From Alistipes sp. (GTDB lineage: Bacteria; Bacteroidota; Bacteroidia; Bacteroidales; Rikenellaceae): a stretch of 48,169 bases of DNA. Shown here piece by piece: positions 12,414 through 42,350 of the stretch. A program made the position numbers and the translations under genes. The DNA lies in the NCBI GenBank assembly GCA_017631255.1, contig JAGBTP010000031.1, positions 1 to 48,169 of the forward strand, in the 5' to 3' direction. Numbering within the stretch: position 1 is the first letter of the stretch; the number at the start of each line of letters is the position of its first letter. The notes beneath the pieces are model-generated. The model was not told the DNA's origin. It saw only the letters and a program-made list of their open reading frames with translations, and ran no database searches.

Positions 12414-12543
12414 ATTCAAGCGGTGTTTATACGATTAGGGCTGTCAGTAGGTCACACCGTTGAGCAGCACGACCATTGCGTTGAAGCGTTCGCGAAGGTG
12501 GGTCACACATACTTATAATATATGTAGATGCTTTCATTTACAA

Positions 12544-13220: not shown

Positions 13221-13673
13221 ATGTCAGTAATACGACTTACCAAGGAGTTTACATTCGAGGCGGCGCACTCACTCGAGGGCTACGACGGCCTTTGTCGCGA
13301 GATTCACGGCCACTCGTACCGCCTTTTTGTCACCGTGAAGGGTGAGCCAGAGAGCAACGAGGCATCGCCCAAGCTCGGTATGGTGATGGACTTCGGCATC
13401 CTGAAGCGTATCGTCAACGAGCAGATTGTCGAGCGCCTCGACCACTCGTTTATGATGCGTCGCACGACGGAGGCCGAGGAGGTGGCCGATGTGCTCAGCT
13501 ACCGTTTCTCGAAGGTGGTGATGACCGATTACCAGCCTACCTGCGAGAATATGCTTGCCGACTTTGCAGAGCGACTGCTTGGTGCGCTACCCGAGGATAT
13601 CGAGCTATACTCGTTGCGCCTGCACGAGACAGCGACATCGTATGCCGAGTGGTTTGCCTCGGATAACTTCTAA
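13221..13673 (+). CDS. queD: 6-carboxy-tetrahydropterin synthase (PTPS/QueD family)
   Basis: Second step of queuosine/7-deazaguanine synthesis, converting dihydroneopterin triphosphate to 6-carboxytetrahydropterin. The protein has 150 residues. Zinc ligands are visible: His16 in FEAAHSL and His29/His31 in REIHGHSY. The nearby Cys25 (GLCREIHGH) is the catalytic cysteine position. The CxxxHxH spacing favours QueD over mammalian-type PTPS. A C-terminal LRLHETATSYAEW motif provides the conserved Glu. Its TAA overlaps the ATG of polA by one base (TAATG), suggesting translational coupling. Confidence 0.92.
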   Translation: MSVIRLTKEFTFEAAHSLEGYDGLCREIHGHSYRLFVTVKGEPESNEASPKLGMVMDFGILKRIVNEQIVERLDHSFMMRRTTEAEEVADVLSYRFSKVVMTDYQPTCENMLADFAERLLGALPEDIELYSLRLHETATSYAEWFASDNF

Positions 13674-16591
13674 TGCGTCGAGATATGCCTAAGAGCCTAT
13701 ACCTTATAGACGCCTACGCGCTCGTATTCAAGTACTACTACGCCTTTATGGGGCGCCCTATGCGCAGCCGTGACGGTATGAACACCTCGGTGGTCTTTGG
13801 CTTCACGAAGTTCCTGCGCGAGATACTCAGGCGCGAGAAGCCCGACCTTGTGGGTGTGGCGTTCGACCCCCCTGGTGGCTGCTTCCGCAGGGAGATGTTC
13901 GCTGAGTACAAGGCCAATCGTCCCCCCACGCCCGAGGATATCAAGCTATCGGTGCCATATGTCAAGCGCCTGCTTGAGGCTATGCGCATACCCATTCTCG
14001 AGGTTGCGGGCTACGAGGCTGACGATGTGATTGGCACGCTGGCAAAGCGTGGTGCGGCGGAGGGTTATAGCGTCTTTATGGTCACGCCCGACAAGGACTA
14101 CGGTCAGCTGGTGGGCCAGGGTTGCGTCATATACCGACAGAAGGGCGACGCCGTGGAGATTGTCGACAAGGCGGCCATCGAGGAGAAGTATGGCATCACC
14201 GAGCCGATATTGGTGCGCGACATCCTTGCACTCTGGGGCGATAGTGCCGACAACATACCAGGTGTGCCGGGCATTGGCGAGAAGGGAGCTACGAAGCTCG
14301 TGCGCCAGTGGGGCGAAGTGGAGAATATCCTCGCAAATGCCGAGGCCATAGGTGGTAAGACGGGTAAAAATATCGCAGAGTGGGGCGATAAGCTGCTCCT
14401 TGCCAAGCAGTTAACCACGATATGCACCGATGTGCCTATTGACTTCGATGCTGAGGCTTTGGCCGTGTCGGAGCCAAACTATGCCGAGTTGAAGGCTCTG
14501 TATTCGGAGCTTAACTTCTCGTCGTTCCTGCGTGATATCGAGAATATGGCACCTGTGGAGGAGGCACCTACCGCACCCGTTCAGGAGCCGCAGACGCAGC
14601 TTCAAGAGGTGGCGCGTGCCAAGGCTGAGGCCAAGCGCAGGGCGAGCCTCGAGGGTCAGGGTGACCTCTTTGCGGCATTTGGTGCCCCCGCAGAGGGTGG
14701 GACTACGGCGGCGGACGCGGCGGTGGCAGGCACAACAGATACCCTCATCGTTTCTGAGGTGGCAGAGATGGAGGGTCTTGATATTCAGACCATTGCCACT
14801 ACGCCGCATAACTACCGCACTGTGATGAGTGCCGAGGAGCTTAGCGCCGTATGTCGTGAAATTGAGAGCTATGATGAGCTATGTTTCGACACTGAGACCA
14901 CGGGTCTTGACCCAATAACAAGCCGCATCGTCGGCATCTCGCTCGCCGTAACGGAGGGCGAGGCGTGGTATGTGCCCTTCAATGTCGAGGGCAGCGAGGC
15001 CTATGCCGACATCCTGCGCCCAATCTTCGAGTGCGAGCGAATAACGAAAATAGGTCAAAATATCAAGTTCGACCTTATGGTGCTCCGAGGCATCGGCATC
15101 GAGGTGCGTGGCGTCAAGATCGACACGATGCTGCTGCACTACCTCATCGACGCCGAGTCGCGTCACAATATGGACTTCCTTGCAGAGCGATATTTGAACT
15201 ACCGCCCGATAGCTATCGAGACGCTTATCGGCAAGGGTGCCAAGCAGTTAACGATGGATATGGTGGGCATCGAGCGCGTGGCGGAGTACGCCGCCGAGGA
15301 TGCCGACATCACGCTGCGCCTCAAGCGCGTGCTATATCCCAAGGTCGAGGCACTCGGTATGATGGAGCTATACCACCGCATCGAGGAGCCTATGATTGAG
15401 GTGTTGGCCGATATGGAGCTTACGGGCGTGACCATCGACAGCGCAGCGCTCAAGGAGTATGCCGTTGAGCTTCGTGAGCTGCTCGCACGCCTCGAGGCTG
15501 AGGTCAGGGAGCTGGCTGACGAGCCTGCGCTCAACATCAACTCATCGCGTCAGCTGGGCGAGGTGCTCTTTGTCAAGCTGCGCATCACCGACAAGCCTAA
15601 GATGACCAAAACCAAGCAGTTCTCGACCGAGGAGGAGTACTTGCAGGGCTTCGCGCGTAGCTTCCCGATTGTGGAGAAGATACTCGAATATAGAGGCGTC
15701 AAGAAGCTGCTCTCGACATATGTCGAGGCGCTGCCAGAGCTGGTAAATAGGGTATCGGGACGCATACATACATCGTACAATCAGGCAGTTACGGCAACAG
15801 GACGCCTCTCGTCAACTAACCCAAACCTGCAAAACATACCTATACGCGACAATCTGGGCAAGCCTATCCGTCGTGCCTTTGTCGCCTCCGATGCCAACCA
15901 CACCCTCGTGGCGGCAGACTACTCGCAGATTGAGCTGCGCATTATGGCCCACCTTGCCGGTGATGAGTCGCTTATCGAGGCCTTCCGCCTTGGCGAGGAT
16001 ATCCACGCAGCAACAGCAGCACGCCTCTATGGCAAGCAGCCAAGTGAGGTGACATCGGACGAGCGTCGTCACGCCAAGACCGCCAACTTCGGCATCATCT
16101 ACGGCATCTCGGCATTTGGCCTCGCGCAGCGCCTCGACATCGCTAACCGTGATGCTAAGGCCCTCATCGATAACTACTTTGCCTCGTATCCAGGTGTCAA
16201 GGCATATATGGATGGTGCTATCCAGAGTGCCACTGCCAGCGGCTATGTCGAGACGATGTTTGGCCGCCGCCGCGTGCTGCGCGACATCAACTCGTCGAAC
16301 CGCACCGTGCGAGGTGTAGCTGAGCGCAACGCCATAAATGCCCCTATTCAGGGCTCTGCCGCCGACATTATGAAGCTCGCAATGGTAGAGATTGCCCGCC
16401 GCTTTAAGGCCGAAGGCATCGGCTCCAAGATGATTATGCAGGTACACGACGAGGTTGTAATCGACACCCTCAACACCGAGCTTGAGCTCGTTAGCCGTAT
16501 CGTCAAGGAGGCAATGGAGAGCGTAGCCGTACTTCGCGTTCCACTTGTAGCTGAAGTGAATAGCGGTACTACTTGGCTTGACGCACATTAG
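13673..16591 (+). CDS. polA: DNA polymerase I
   Basis: The 972-residue protein has three domains. The 5' nuclease domain (~5-290) carries the acidic cluster YEADDVIG and DKDYGQLV. A low-complexity linker (~291-384) follows. The 3'-5' exonuclease domain (~385-580) starts with CFDTETTG (406-411), so the proofreading acidic residues are kept. The polymerase domain has motif A DYSQIELR (749 on), motif B RHAKTANFGIIYG (799 on) and motif C MQVHDEVV (922 on). The start overlaps the queD stop. An alternative ATG four codons later (MPKSLYLIDAY) matches the family start equally well. Confidence 0.97.
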   Translation: MRRDMPKSLYLIDAYALVFKYYYAFMGRPMRSRDGMNTSVVFGFTKFLREILRREKPDLVGVAFDPPGGCFRREMFAEYKANRPPTPEDIKLSVPYVKRLLEAMRIPILEVAGYEADDVIGTLAKRGAAEGYSVFMVTPDKDYGQLVGQGCVIYRQKGDAVEIVDKAAIEEKYGITEPILVRDILALWGDSADNIPGVPGIGEKGATKLVRQWGEVENILANAEAIGGKTGKNIAEWGDKLLLAKQLTTICTDVPIDFDAEALAVSEPNYAELKALYSELNFSSFLRDIENMAPVEEAPTAPVQEPQTQLQEVARAKAEAKRRASLEGQGDLFAAFGAPAEGGTTAADAAVAGTTDTLIVSEVAEMEGLDIQTIATTPHNYRTVMSAEELSAVCREIESYDELCFDTETTGLDPITSRIVGISLAVTEGEAWYVPFNVEGSEAYADILRPIFECERITKIGQNIKFDLMVLRGIGIEVRGVKIDTMLLHYLIDAESRHNMDFLAERYLNYRPIAIETLIGKGAKQLTMDMVGIERVAEYAAEDADITLRLKRVLYPKVEALGMMELYHRIEEPMIEVLADMELTGVTIDSAALKEYAVELRELLARLEAEVRELADEPALNINSSRQLGEVLFVKLRITDKPKMTKTKQFSTEEEYLQGFARSFPIVEKILEYRGVKKLLSTYVEALPELVNRVSGRIHTSYNQAVTATGRLSSTNPNLQNIPIRDNLGKPIRRAFVASDANHTLVAADYSQIELRIMAHLAGDESLIEAFRLGEDIHAATAARLYGKQPSEVTSDERRHAKTANFGIIYGISAFGLAQRLDIANRDAKALIDNYFASYPGVKAYMDGAIQSATASGYVETMFGRRRVLRDINSSNRTVRGVAERNAINAPIQGSAADIMKLAMVEIARRFKAEGIGSKMIMQVHDEVVIDTLNTELELVSRIVKEAMESVAVLRVPLVAEVNSGTTWLDAH

Positions 16592-16619
16592 CATTGCGTA
16601 ACTTCGTGCGATTGCTTCT

Positions 16620-16750
16620 GATCTCTTGTCTGAAGGGGTTAGATTTGGCCTATCGCAAAAGAAACCACTCGGGGATAGTACAATGAAGTACAGCCCCGAG
16701 TGGTTTACTTTTTGGGATGGGCCGCAGATTGCAACCTACCACGAGAATTT
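16620..16750. repeat. MITE-like structured element, copy A
   Basis: Imperfect inverted ends GATCTCTTGT and ACGAGAATTT (each two mismatches from the consensus AATTTCTTGT/ACAAGAAATT). The central stem AAACCACTCGGGG pairs with CCCCGAGTGGTTT (16662-16706) around a loop holding two GTAC tetramers. Downstream of the hairpin is GGGCCGCAGATTGC, shared with the other copies. It directly abuts copy B. Confidence 0.8.
16662..16706. terminator. 13 bp hairpin inside element copy A
   Basis: Perfect 13 bp inverted repeat downstream of polA followed by ACTTTTTGG. It may act as the polA terminator, but the same position in the other element copies has no T run. Confidence 0.5.
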
Positions 16751-16912
16751 AATTTCTTGTCAGAGTACAACTAATTCACCTCCGATAAAGAAGTAAGCCC
16801 AGATGGATAGTACTTTGTGTACATTCCATTTGGGCTTACGATTGAGAGGCCGCAGATTGCGGCTTATCACAAGAAATTCACAAGAAATTCACAAGAAATT
16901 CACAAGAAATTA
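16750..16912. repeat. MITE-like structured element, copy B, ending on the kbl stop codon
   Basis: The left end is TAATTTCTTGT at 16750-16760. The right end is a run of four ACAAGAAATT units, the last (ACAAGAAATTA, 16902-16912) containing the TAA stop of kbl on the minus strand. The internal hairpin AAGCCCAGATGGA/TCCATTTGGGCTT is at 16795-16837, followed by TTACGATTGAGAGG and CCGCAGATTGCGG. The left TIR to first right TIR spans about 128 bp. It is identical in length and internal order to copy C. Confidence 0.85.
16868..16911 (+). repeat. Four 11 bp tandem copies of CACAAGAAATT
   Basis: Exact units at 16868-16878, 16879-16889, 16890-16900 and 16901-16911. Each is the terminal inverted repeat of the structured element, and the last overlaps the kbl stop codon. 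Confidence 0.97.
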
Positions 16913-18097
16913 CTTGAGAACACCGAGCTTCTTACCCACCTTCACGAACGCCTCAACGCAACGGTCGAGCTGCTCAACGGTGTGACCTGCTGACACCTGA
17001 ACACGGATACGAGCCTGGCCCTTTGGTACTACTGGGTAGTAGAAGCCGGTAACGAATACACCCTCCTGCTGGAGCTCAGCAGCGAAGTCCTGTGAGAGCT
17101 TAGCATCGTAGAGCATAACGGCGCAGATAGCTGACTGTGTAGGCTTGATGTCGAAGCCGGCAGCAACCATCTTAGTGCGGAAGTGCTCAACATTTGCTAC
17201 GAGCTGATCGTGAAGAGCATCGCTCTCCTCGAGCATCTTGAACATCTCGATAGATGCACCCACTACTGCTGGTGGGAGTGAGTTAGAGAAGAGGTATGGG
17301 CGTGAGCGCTGGCGGAGCATATCGATGATCTCCTTGCGGCCTGTTGTGAAGCCACCCACAGCACCACCAAATGCCTTACCGAGGGTACCGGTGAGGATAT
17401 CTACCTTGCCACGGAGGTCGTAAAGCTCGGTGATACCACGACCTGTCTTACCGAGAACACCTGCTGAGTGGCACTCGTCAACCATAACAAGAGCGTCGTA
17501 CTTCTCCGCAAGCTCGCAAATCTTATCGAGTGGAGCGGCGTTACCGTCCATAGAGAATACACCGTCGGTCACGATGATACGGAAGCGCTGCGCCTGTGCC
17601 TGCTTGAGGCACTCCTCGAGCTCTGCCATATCGGCATTAGCGTAGCGATAGCGCTGAGCCTTGCAGAGGCGCACGCCGTCGATGATAGATGCGTGGTTGA
17701 GGGCGTCAGAGATGATAGCATCCTCAGCGGTGAAGAGAGGCTCGAAGACACCACCGTTAGCGTCGAAGCAAGCAGCGTAGAGGATAGTGTCCTCAGTGCC
17801 GAAGTAGTCGGCGATAGCCTTCTCGAGCTCCTTGTGCATATCCTGGCAACCGCAGATGAAGCGTACTGATGACATACCGAAGCCACGCTCATCCATAGCC
17901 TTCTTAGCAGCGTCGATAAGGCGCTGGTTGTCAGAGAGGCCGAGGTAGTTATTAGCACAGAAGTTGAGTACTGGGCGGTTAGCTACATCGATTTCGGCGC
18001 GCTGTGGCGACTCGATGATACGCTCTGTCTTGTACAAGCCGGCAGCCTTGATCTCTGCCAACTCATTCTGCAAATACTGCTGAAATTTTCCGTACAT
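16910..18097 (-). CDS. kbl: Glycine C-acetyltransferase (2-amino-3-ketobutyrate CoA ligase)
   Basis: PLP enzyme of the alpha-oxoamine synthase family that cleaves 2-amino-3-ketobutyrate with CoA to glycine and acetyl-CoA. The protein has 395 residues. Family landmarks: NFCANNYLGLSDN (45-57), GFGMSSVRFICG (72-83), VMVDECHSAGVLG (204-216) and the PLP-lysine motif TGTLGKAFGG with Lys241. A threonine dehydrogenase is not adjacent. Alternative members (BioF, serine palmitoyltransferase-like) are less likely because of the GMSSVRFICG and C-terminal RIRVQVSAGHT motifs. The last codon AAG is followed by a TAA provided by the end of the repeated element. Confidence 0.93.
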   Translation of the reverse strand: MYGKFQQYLQNELAEIKAAGLYKTERIIESPQRAEIDVANRPVLNFCANNYLGLSDNQRLIDAAKKAMDERGFGMSSVRFICGCQDMHKELEKAIADYFGTEDTILYAACFDANGGVFEPLFTAEDAIISDALNHASIIDGVRLCKAQRYRYANADMAELEECLKQAQAQRFRIIVTDGVFSMDGNAAPLDKICELAEKYDALVMVDECHSAGVLGKTGRGITELYDLRGKVDILTGTLGKAFGGAVGGFTTGRKEIIDMLRQRSRPYLFSNSLPPAVVGASIEMFKMLEESDALHDQLVANVEHFRTKMVAAGFDIKPTQSAICAVMLYDAKLSQDFAAELQQEGVFVTGFYYPVVPKGQARIRVQVSAGHTVEQLDRCVEAFVKVGKKLGVLK

Positions 18098-21899: not shown

Positions 21900-23801
21900 A
21901 TGAGAAAGTGGAAGGTAGACGACTCTATCGAGTTGTACAATATTAATAGCTGGGGCAAGGACTACTTCTCGGTCAACGAGGAGGGTAATGTCGTGGTGCG
22001 ACCCAAGGATGGTGGCGCTACTATTGACCTGCGCAAGCTCATCGACGAGCTTCAGATTCACGACATCAGTATGCCCCTTCTGCTGCGCTTCCCCGACATA
22101 CTTAACAACCGCATCACCAAGATATCGCGCTGCTTCGAGCGCGCCGCCAAGGAGTACGACTACAAGGCCGAAAGCTACATCGTCTACCCCATCAAGGTCA
22201 ACCAGATGCGCCCCGTTGTCGAGGAGCTCATCAGCCACGGCAACAACTACCGCGTAGGCCTCGAGGCGGGCTCGAAACCTGAGCTTCACGCCGTACTATC
22301 GCTCAACTTCGACCACGACTCGCTCATCATCTGCAACGGCTACAAGGACGAGAGCTACATCAAGCTGGCGCTGCTGGCGCATAAGATGGGCCGCAAGATC
22401 TTCCTCGTTGTCGAGAAGCTCGTCGAGCTGCGCACCATAGCGCGCCTCGCCAAGGCGATGAACATACGCCCCAACATCGGCATACGCATCAAGCTCGCAA
22501 GCTCGGGTAGCGGCAAGTGGGAGGAGTCGGGTGGCGACATCTCGAAGTTCGGCCTTAACTCCTCGGAGCTCATCGACGCCCTCAGCATCTTGCGTGGTGA
22601 GGGTATGGAGGAGTGCTTCAAGCTCATCCACTTCCACATCGGCTCGCAGGTGACCAACATCCGCCGCATCAAGACGGCACTCAAGGAGGCAACGCAGTTC
22701 TACGCCCAGCTACGCAAGAGCGGCTATAATATTGAGTTTGTGGATATTGGCGGCGGCCTTGGCGTCAACTACGACGGCACACAGTCGGCCATCAGCGGCA
22801 ACAGCATCAACTACTCGATTCAGGAGTATGTCAACGATGCGGTCTATTCGATTGTCGACATCTGCCACAAGAACGACCTCAAGCAGCCTAACCTCATCAT
22901 CGAGTCGGGCCGCTCGCTTACGGCACACCACTCGATCCTCGTCTTCGAGGTGTTGGCCCGCACGCAGCTCCCCGCCTTTGGCGAGGAGGAGGTCATCGGT
23001 GACGACGCCCACGAACTTGTGCGTGACCTCTACGACATCTGGAATAAGCTCACCCCAAGCCGCCTCATCGAGCAGTGGCACGACGCTATGCAGGCGCGTG
23101 AGGACGCCCTTGAGTTCTTCAACCTCGGACTTGTGGACCTCGAGACGCGTGCTCTCGTCGAGCGCCTCTTCTGGTCTATTGCACGCGAGGTGAACACTAT
23201 GTCGGGCAAGAGCAAGCACGCCCCCGAGGAGCTTCGTGCCATCTCGCGTAGCCTGCCCGATAAGTACTTCTGTAACTTCTCGCTGTTCCAGTCGCTTCCC
23301 GACTCGTGGGCTATCGACCAGATATTCCCCGTCGTACCGCTCTCGCGCCTAAACGAGCCACCTACCTGCTCCGCGACGCTGCAAGATATCACCTGCGACT
23401 CGGACGGTAAGATTGATAACTTCATCTCTACCTCGAATAACGCCTACCACCTCCCCGTCCACGAGCTTCGTGAGGGCGAGCCATACTATATCGGCGTCTT
23501 TTTGGTGGGTGCATATCAAGAGATTCTGGGCGACTTGCATAACCTCTTCGGCGATACTAATGCGGTGCATATCTCGGTCAAGGGCGACGAGTATGTCATC
23601 GACAAAATCATTGAGGGTGAGACCATTGCCGATGTTCTGGACTATGTTCAGTTCGACCATAAGCGTATGGTTCGTGCCATCGAGATCTGGGTTGCTAAGT
23701 CGGTCAAGAGTGGCGCCATCACCCTGGAGGAGGGCAAGGAGTTCATCTCGAACTACCGCTCTGGCCTCTACGGCTACACCTACCTCGAGCCCTACGAGTA
23801 A
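21900..23801 (+). CDS. speA: Biosynthetic arginine decarboxylase
   Basis: Converts arginine to agmatine, the substrate of the SpeB at the head of the same cluster. The 633-residue protein has the PLP lysine at Lys99 in YIVYPIKVNQ, a glycine-rich phosphate site (VDIGGGLGVNYDG), and the C-terminal SpeA-type region with SWAIDQIFPVVPLSRL and GAYQEILGDLHNLFGDTN. It is slightly longer than diaminopimelate decarboxylase, as expected for SpeA. A strong hairpin with a short T run terminates the cluster. Confidence 0.96.
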   Translation: MRKWKVDDSIELYNINSWGKDYFSVNEEGNVVVRPKDGGATIDLRKLIDELQIHDISMPLLLRFPDILNNRITKISRCFERAAKEYDYKAESYIVYPIKVNQMRPVVEELISHGNNYRVGLEAGSKPELHAVLSLNFDHDSLIICNGYKDESYIKLALLAHKMGRKIFLVVEKLVELRTIARLAKAMNIRPNIGIRIKLASSGSGKWEESGGDISKFGLNSSELIDALSILRGEGMEECFKLIHFHIGSQVTNIRRIKTALKEATQFYAQLRKSGYNIEFVDIGGGLGVNYDGTQSAISGNSINYSIQEYVNDAVYSIVDICHKNDLKQPNLIIESGRSLTAHHSILVFEVLARTQLPAFGEEEVIGDDAHELVRDLYDIWNKLTPSRLIEQWHDAMQAREDALEFFNLGLVDLETRALVERLFWSIAREVNTMSGKSKHAPEELRAISRSLPDKYFCNFSLFQSLPDSWAIDQIFPVVPLSRLNEPPTCSATLQDITCDSDGKIDNFISTSNNAYHLPVHELREGEPYYIGVFLVGAYQEILGDLHNLFGDTNAVHISVKGDEYVIDKIIEGETIADVLDYVQFDHKRMVRAIEIWVAKSVKSGAITLEEGKEFISNYRSGLYGYTYLEPYE

Positions 23802-23901: not shown

Positions 23902-24031
23902 TAATTTCTTGTTAGATAGGTGCTTATGTGGCCTCGATAAAGAAGAAAGAGCGGATGGGACATACTATGCGTATTTCCCATTCGCTCTTACGATTGAGAG
24001 GTCGCAGATGACCCCTTATCACCCCAAATTA
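23902..24031. repeat. MITE-like structured element, copy C, ending on the ridA stop codon
   Basis: The left end TAATTTCTTGT (23902-23912) is identical to copy B. The internal order is the same: CGATAAAGAAG, a hairpin stem AAGAGCGGATGGGA/TCCCATTCGCTCTT around ATAC/GTAT, then CTTACGATTGAGAGG and CGCAGAT. The right end ACCCCAAATTA (24021-24031) is a decayed inverted repeat that contains the TAA stop of ridA on the minus strand. The conserved AATTTCTTGT to TTATCAC span is 120 bases in both B and C. Confidence 0.85.
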
Positions 24032-24403
24032 CTTGATGGCGATAGCATCAATCTCCACCAACGCACCCATTGGAAGGGCAGCAACCTGATAGCAGATACG
24101 AGCTGGCTTGTCGCCGGTGAAGAACTCGGCGTAGATAGCGTTCATAGCTGCGAAGTCGGCGATGTCGGCGAGGAGAACGGTGGTCTTAGCTACATTGTCG
24201 AAGGTGTAGCCTGCCTCGTTGAGGATATAACCGAGGTTGGTGAGTGCCTGACGGGTCTGTGCCTCAACGCCCTCAGCCATCTTGCCGGTAGCGCCGTCGA
24301 TTGGGAGCTGACCAGAGATGTAGAGAGTTGCGTCGTGAGCGATAGCCTGTGAGTATGGACCTACTGCCTTAGGTGCCAAAGGTGATGCGATAACTTTTTT
24401 CAT
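24029..24403 (-). CDS. ridA: RidA family enamine/imine deaminase
   Basis: Hydrolyses reactive enamine/imine intermediates from PLP enzymes to ketoacids plus ammonia. The 124-residue length is typical. The signature segments GPYSQAI (15-21), LYISGQLP and the catalytic Arg102 in ARICYQVAALP with Glu117 in LVEIDAIA are all present, so it is a true RidA subgroup member. It lies convergent to the polyamine cluster. The product ends ...AIK, and its TAA is formed by the end of element copy C. Confidence 0.95.
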   Translation of the reverse strand: MKKVIASPLAPKAVGPYSQAIAHDATLYISGQLPIDGATGKMAEGVEAQTRQALTNLGYILNEAGYTFDNVAKTTVLLADIADFAAMNAIYAEFFTGDKPARICYQVAALPMGALVEIDAIAIK

Positions 24404-42254: not shown

Positions 42255-42350
42255 ATGCGCGTACATACACGCATACACGCGTGCGCGCGAGCGCGCATAC
42301 ACGCGTACATACACGCATACACACATACACGCGTGCGCGCGAGCACACAC
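42255..42350. repeat. Alternating purine-pyrimidine tract with a ~40-50 bp duplication
   Basis: Runs of (CA)n/(CG)n/(TA)n steps. The string CACGCGTGCGCGCGAGC occurs twice, each preceded by ACATACACGCATACAC. Z-DNA forming potential. Confidence 0.85.

Follow-up and report, generated by a model that had tools for sequence, protein, structure and literature searches.

What are the repeated hairpins that separate the 3' ends of polA and kbl in this Alistipes genome, and why do they lie there? The window, by which we mean the whole stretch of DNA analysed (48,169 nucleotides of contig JAGBTP010000031.1, assembly GCA_017631255.1), had been given an initial annotation in which a non-coding, MITE-like element with inverted ends occurred as two tandem copies and a third one further on, and could either be mobilised in trans or be a transcribed RNA element. 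That annotation missed that a single hairpin makes up the whole element and that its right end is linked to the stop codons of genes. The copies and the genes adjoining them are as follows:

13673..16591, + strand: DNA polymerase I gene (polA; NF004397), on the left side of copy A
16619..16751, + strand: element copy A, stem subtype I, sharing TA with copy B
16750..16879, + strand: element copy B, stem subtype II, its left arm poorly matched to its right arm, right end towards kbl
16794..16838, + strand: central hairpin of copy B, with TAC-N-GTA tip and terminator-like core
16867..16912, + strand: right end of copy B, made of four 11-bp units (TCACAAGAAAT) that lead into TTA, the minus-strand stop codon of kbl
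16910..18097, - strand: glycine C-acetyltransferase gene (kbl; TIGR01822, 684 bits), ended by the element
21900..23801, + strand: biosynthetic arginine decarboxylase gene (NF003763), on the left side of copy C
23902..24031, + strand: element copy C, subtype II, ending in TTA, the minus-strand stop codon of the Rid-family gene
23946..23990, + strand: central hairpin of copy C, with the same TAC-N-GTA tip as copy B
24029..24403, - strand: Rid-family hydrolase gene (ridA; TIGR00004, 158 bits), ended by copy C

Element copies in the window

Copies A and B are indeed head-to-tail neighbours, with the TA at 16750-16751 common to both, the third copy lies at 23902-24031 as annotated, and the distance from the left end to TTATCAC, when remeasured, is exactly 120 bases in both B and C. 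Copy A had been described as having the same ordered parts over a span of about 122 bases; it lacks CGATAAAGAAG and TTACGATTGAGAGG, has CTACCAC in place of TTATCAC, measures 123 bases and belongs to another stem subtype. The "variable 30 base segment" reported behind the left end is present, but it is actually the left arm of the hairpin and pairs with the right arm in most copies. Folding z-scores of A, B and C range from -4.1 to -8.4 on both strands (against 200 dinucleotide shuffles). The left end of A lies 27 nt past the polA stop codon, and the kbl stop lies 33 nt past the model end of B.

Other repeats occur in the same window. Positions 819-908 hold about four 24-bp tandem repeats (TAGGGCACATCTGCGGGTGCAAAT), starting at the TAG stop with which the ORF at 105-821 ends; within them is ATCTGCGG, which is the CCGCAGAT of the element in reverse complement, and the repeats may be decayed right-arm pieces of that element. 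A short stretch of period-8 low-complexity repeats (CGCGTACATACACGCATACACG...) occupies positions 42258-42348. Upstream of polA, positions 12442-12503 form a 62-nt inverted copy (92%) of the kbl 3' end at 16934-16995; since kbl and polA converge in the window, whereas kbl followed by polA is co-directional in at least nine congeners, this kbl remnant looks like a rearrangement scar near the elements.

Copies in the genus and in other Bacteroidales

A BLAST search with the A/B region as query gave 24 matches in the source genome (1.82 Mb, 76 contigs, 86% complete). The covariance model R1, built from 23 copies, gave 78 rows there with both strands counted (150 of 339 candidates scored), and a hand count of that listing, from the same 150 of 339 candidates, placed them at about 42 distinct places at E<=0.001. 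R1 was positive in 24 of 37 genomes of the genus and, in that run, in none of 24 belonging to other families; five genomes of the genus had at least 56 R1 matches each (56 candidates scored per genome). Further copies, which the initial annotation had proposed to seek by nucleotide search, were thus found in the source genome and in its relatives. An assembly artefact was rejected, because the copies sit on many contigs and in many assemblies; the genomes compared are mostly draft MAGs. With the kbl protein as query, the named relatives heading the matches listed are mostly "Alistipes sp." MAGs, many of them from herbivore hindgut. Rfam 15 gave no match in the window at gathering score and a single match on 18 element-bearing loci, a tmRNA outside the element, while a permissive Rfam search of the A/B region returned matches all far below the family cut-offs. 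An 18-base core pattern had no match in IMG/VR, and no such element is described in Alistipes, Rikenellaceae or Bacteroidetes among the matches listed by a literature search, in the available parts of those texts.

A set of 108 copies was assembled for structural analysis: 30 source-genome copies with loci, 47 congener copies and 31 copies from 394 kb of genome G017. Left outside this set were 12 further source-genome places of the 42 or so, second-strand rows of the same copies, and weak, partial and some good matches (L060 1178, L061 1204, L069 1658 and 1956, L077, L080 1376, L081 1372, L105 977, L107 2571, L125, L127, L189 13623, L194 16225, L199 16797). The kbl-site matches of L103, L105 and L107 were omitted as coming from the same genomes as L093, L097 and L094, and L101 as being the same place as L202 9693. 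Two G017 copies (L197 11619 and 19273) are probably wrongly oriented; they are counted in the 108 and were removed from the 106-copy analyses, namely the arm re-pairing and the T-tract count.

Over 198 genomes of the order, R1 matched three: the source genome, G128 and G249. The last was not counted as a carrier, its fold lacking the geometry when judged by eye. A broader model, R2, built from 40 sequences of which two came from G128, matched 7 of 393 genomes (8 candidates scored per genome), namely the source genome, G213 (one of the four listed genomes from other genera of the source family), G128 and its congeners, four genomes in all from a second family, and G308 of a third family. Relatives with a similar geometry are found in three further genera, of which two belong to Bacteroidales families different from that of the source genome. 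Direct search of the six non-genus genomes yielded 2 to 13 matches each and 31 in total, of which 30 were analysed, the last having no locus. The least secure carrier is G213, with two weak matches, neither near a stop. G128 is partly exceptional, with 2 of 5 copies near a stop; at L235:8057-8596 it holds a 225-bp tandem array (2.4 copies) with related hairpins, off the stop codon, between ORFs that we take to be carbamoyltransferase-like and penicillin-binding-protein-like, the array lying in front of the latter.

Hairpin geometry, strand and gene ends

Each copy forms a single long, imperfect hairpin, about 125-133 bp in length. Read from the foot, it begins with a stem of about ten pairs and an internal loop (TCAGAA / TTATCA); about nine more pairs lead to a second loop, which has AGAT in each side and could form tandem G-A pairs, and beyond which there is further stem. 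At the apex a central GC-rich stem is flanked by A-rich and T-rich stretches and capped by the tip TAC-N(3-7)-GTA, present in 108 of 108 copies compared with 87 of 2160 letter-shuffled ones. In the alignment 90.3% of cells are paired and 94 cells have both sides changed; the covariation score is 0.421 against 0.184 when shuffled, with none of 500 shuffles reaching the observed value on any of five measures, and sliding the partner columns by 1-3 lowers the pairing to 35-52%. Compensatory change occurs in 28 of 33 pairs among 40 diverse copies. The two arms of one copy also pair better with each other than after random re-pairing (-23.5 versus -14.2; sd 0.44, 20 re-pairings), and even the terminal sequences are not fixed, varying between copies and covarying within a copy. 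Across copies the letters change and the shape is kept.

The orientation used here, the + strand of the window, is antisense to the gene at the right end. This antisense strand is the more stable one in 103 of the 108 copies, by 14.5 kcal/mol on average, and G-U pairs number 536 on it against 106 on the gene strand. When copies were oriented by the stop codon alone, which avoids circularity, it folded better in 74 of 80 copies and in 18 of 18 from other genera; for all analysed copies from other genera the count is 30 of 30. The transcribed RNA element that the initial annotation offered as an alternative is kept as a possible reading because the antisense strand is the better folder. Template switching between the arms was rejected as a source of the covariation, on the reasoning that it would be expected to recreate perfect pairs and would leave the G-U bias unaccounted for.

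Placement is as asymmetric as folding. When ORFs of at least 70 codons ending near either end of the 108 copies were collected, the right end fell exactly at an ORF stop codon in 54 copies and within -20 to +15 nt of one in 78, and the left end within the same range in 6. In other genera the right end does so in 19 of 30 copies versus 1 of 30 for the left, and several ORFs there stop at +10 or +11. The last letters of the element usually form the stop signal of the gene. Read in the direction of the gene, a TTATCAC right end is GTGATAA, which gives a TGA and a TAA in the frame adjoining the terminal TAA, so that this end can stop two reading frames. Among the 30 copies of 108 without a stop near the right end, some are second copies of head-to-tail arrays and others are without explanation. 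Window copies A and B are both among these 30 and copy C fits its stop exactly; the end of B is shifted by its fourfold 11-bp repeat, and A sits behind B. Genes bearing elements look like core genes. The kbl and Rid-family genes were assigned by NCBIfam, and from translations we take others to encode an aldolase, a phosphoglycerate kinase, SecA or ribosomal protein S1; six element-bearing gene families are common to the source genome and G017.

A strand-specific fold next to a stop codon recalls the attC sites of integrons, whose boxes are R'' (RYYYAAC) and R' (GTTRRRY). With this consensus, end boxes were found in 0 of 108 and 0 of 30 copies, and membership of attC was dropped. A looser, attC-like site, at which a tyrosine recombinase would recombine the folded bottom strand and the gene plus its hairpin would form a cassette, agrees with the better folding of the antisense strand, with the position against the stop codon, with the tandem sites and with one synteny break at an element end; the genes attached nevertheless look like core genes and not cassettes, and we regard such a site as very improbable. 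Known attC sites, palindromic and recognised by their enzyme as a folded bottom strand according to the accessible part of the source (PMC3053210), are the nearest parallel in strand logic.

The core of the hairpin suggests another role. The 9 bases that follow the GC stem include at least 5 T in 88 of 106 copies when read with the gene and in 60 of 106 when read the other way, T making up 27% overall and these counts having no shuffled control. The central GC stem with its T-rich flanks resembles a two-way terminator, and to judge from the sequences a terminator role of the element is plausible. A strict consensus scan called no terminator within copies A, B and C. Ordinary hairpins with a T-rich flank stand, by eye, at element-free ends of kbl in G025 and of ridA in G086. 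Terminator action uses the central hairpin only and leaves the outer-arm pairing unexplained. The element might all the same be a host-owned RNA module of 3' ends, that is, a terminator or mRNA-stability hairpin at fixed gene ends, spread or homogenised by recombination and not mobile. The stop-codon position, the recurrence of the same gene families in different species, the T-rich flanks on both sides of the central stem and a mini-hairpin of the right arm in the gene-sense strand (-7.6 versus -3.0 kcal/mol for letter shuffles) are as such a module would have them, whereas the antisense position of the better-folding strand and the head-to-tail arrays are not.

Turnover between relatives and mode of spread

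The comparison of orthologous sites bears on the same question. At the kbl stop codon an element of one subtype or another is present in 11 of 12 fetched congeners, which were chosen for close kbl matches among 101 genomes; among 32 named loci listed for kbl it is present in L103, L105 and L107 and in none of the other 29. Genomes G011 and G064, 95-96% identical at kbl, yet have different elements at the same stop. At sites shared by the source genome and G017 the identity of the elements is 0.56-0.73, averaging about 0.64 in eight pairings, while random pairs from the two genomes reach 0.60; being slightly more alike, the shared-site elements may have some ancestry in common.

Genomes G028 and G029, two species whose long aligned blocks are mostly 87-94% identical, were compared, partly by eye, at 8 of the 16 elements listed by R1 for the fetched stretches of G028. 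In G029 one of the eight is 97% alike, two keep the site but differ in the apical stem, another element stands in place of one, and four are missing. Polymorphic presence, which the initial annotation had held would support mobility, is therefore seen between two fairly close genomes, these being of two species. One of the absent sites has an ordinary hairpin in place of the element in G029, and another keeps a single AATCTGATTT, also part of element ends. At one G028 site there are three tandem copies, with outer arms partly shared and apical stems different (by eye). Which genes carry the element differs between close relatives, and one stop codon can hold different elements. The module outlined above fits poorly with orthologous sites that often hold other subtypes and with several sites that have no element in a related genome, and on balance we think it rather unlikely.

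Two further features were seen in these loci. The alignment of G028 C11 (L223:6564) with G029 C13 and C1 breaks at the right end of an element, as if at a rearrangement breakpoint. A second palindromic repeat with an 8-nt period (AAGGAATTTAGGGAAGTTAG...; L203:13665-13765) has many copies in G028, G029 and G017, and several loci have it immediately outside the left end of the hairpin.

If copies move, by what means? The MITE-like reading of the initial annotation holds in so far as the element is multi-copy, non-coding and structured with inverted ends. Under the classical MITE reading, the element would have arisen from a DDE insertion sequence by deletion and would move in trans by way of its inverted ends, duplicating TA or a similar target; the size of about 130 bp, the patchy occurrence and the TA common to the adjacent copies A and B would further agree with this. 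Yet the ends vary and covary, the flanks of the 108 copies, left flanks included, have by eye no constant target duplication, and the orientation-exact placement at stop codons is left unexplained. No DDE_3 match reached the cut-off in the 37 genomes of the genus, with one DDE family searched and in MAGs, which often lose repeated IS copies; two sub-cut-off matches were in G002 and G018, both without an R1 match. A simple TA-target MITE was rejected, and the classical MITE seems to us improbable. More generally, profile searches for two transposase families yielded no transposase, recombinase or autonomous long copy. Unpaired element ends are many in the 394 kb of G017.

REPs, too, can be palindromic, extragenic, strand-asymmetric and near stop codons, as the element is, and a REP/BIME-type repeat moved by a RAYT (Y1) transposase was therefore considered. 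Y1_Tnp (PF01797) was found in 0 of the 37 genus genomes, the same search being positive in 5 of 14 control genomes, and the element measures about 130 bp against 20-40 bp for REPs, which carry a GTAG or CGTC tag in the part of the source available (PMC3733652). We give this explanation hardly any credence. REPs are the nearest parallel in habit, as extragenic palindromes with conserved unpaired positions, on what that source excerpt tells of them.

Other small repeats resemble the element in part, as far as the available portions of the sources describe them. In function the nearest are the pneumococcal SPRITEs, Rho-independent-terminator-like repeats with an 18-bp duplex and a U-rich tract that are enriched near CDS 3' ends and between convergent genes, and for which co-option as terminators has been suggested (PMC3049150). 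These are likewise dispersed, terminator-resembling repeats at gene ends, whereas the hairpin described here is about 130 nt long, has covarying arms, is tied to stops by one end in one orientation and folds better on the antisense strand. ERIC or IRU elements are nearest in size and shape (127 bp, long hairpin, intergenic and transcribed, with orientation-dependent effects on upstream mRNA), but they are listed with 7-bp inverted ends, target duplication and TA termini (PMC2229807), where the ends of our element vary and show by eye no constant duplication. Correia/NEMIS and RUP repeats share a length of about 100-160 bp, inverted ends and secondary structure, and have TIRs, target duplication and TA termini, to which RUP adds an IS630 partner (PMC2229807); the DDE_3 search in 37 genomes found no such partner for the element. 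Among SPRITE, ERIC, attC and REP, none fits fully.

Shape kept while letters change, together with carrier genes that differ between relatives, makes this look like a mobile gene-ending element. The best explanation, for which we judge the evidence about evenly balanced, would be a dispersed hairpin element of about 125-133 bp, mobile, recognised by its shape, located at gene 3' ends and perhaps doubling as a terminator. From the outer arms, the strand bias and the turnover we infer recognition of a folded single strand during spread. Copies would spread to gene ends and be exchanged between them; in the spread step the antisense strand would be single and folded, as ssDNA or RNA, and a putative enzyme would recognise it by shape. 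The host would tolerate the copies since the element supplies a stop codon and a two-way terminator-like hairpin, and could thus stand in for the gene's own terminator. Against mobility, elements occupy many of the sites in two or more species (kbl, and the six families common to the source genome and G017), which a long-lived host function predicts as well.

The element belongs with the small palindromic repeats, and there is a real chance that it is a distinct class among them. More tentatively, it may represent a new class of Bacteroidales mobile DNA. Hairpins of about 130 nt, recognised by shape and largely free in their letters, would be placed or exchanged precisely at core-gene stop codons, in a single orientation, by a putative enzyme that acts on the antisense strand when folded; gene ends, with their stop and terminator, would in this way be exchangeable parts. 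Many bacteria have small palindromic repeats, but a family tied to stop codons in one orientation, its geometry kept across several Bacteroidales genera while its sequence is rewritten, is unusual. It raises testable questions as to which enzyme reads the shape, by what means the stop codon is located and whether genes exchange their ends, and the covariance models made here detect such elements where sequence search alone is weak.
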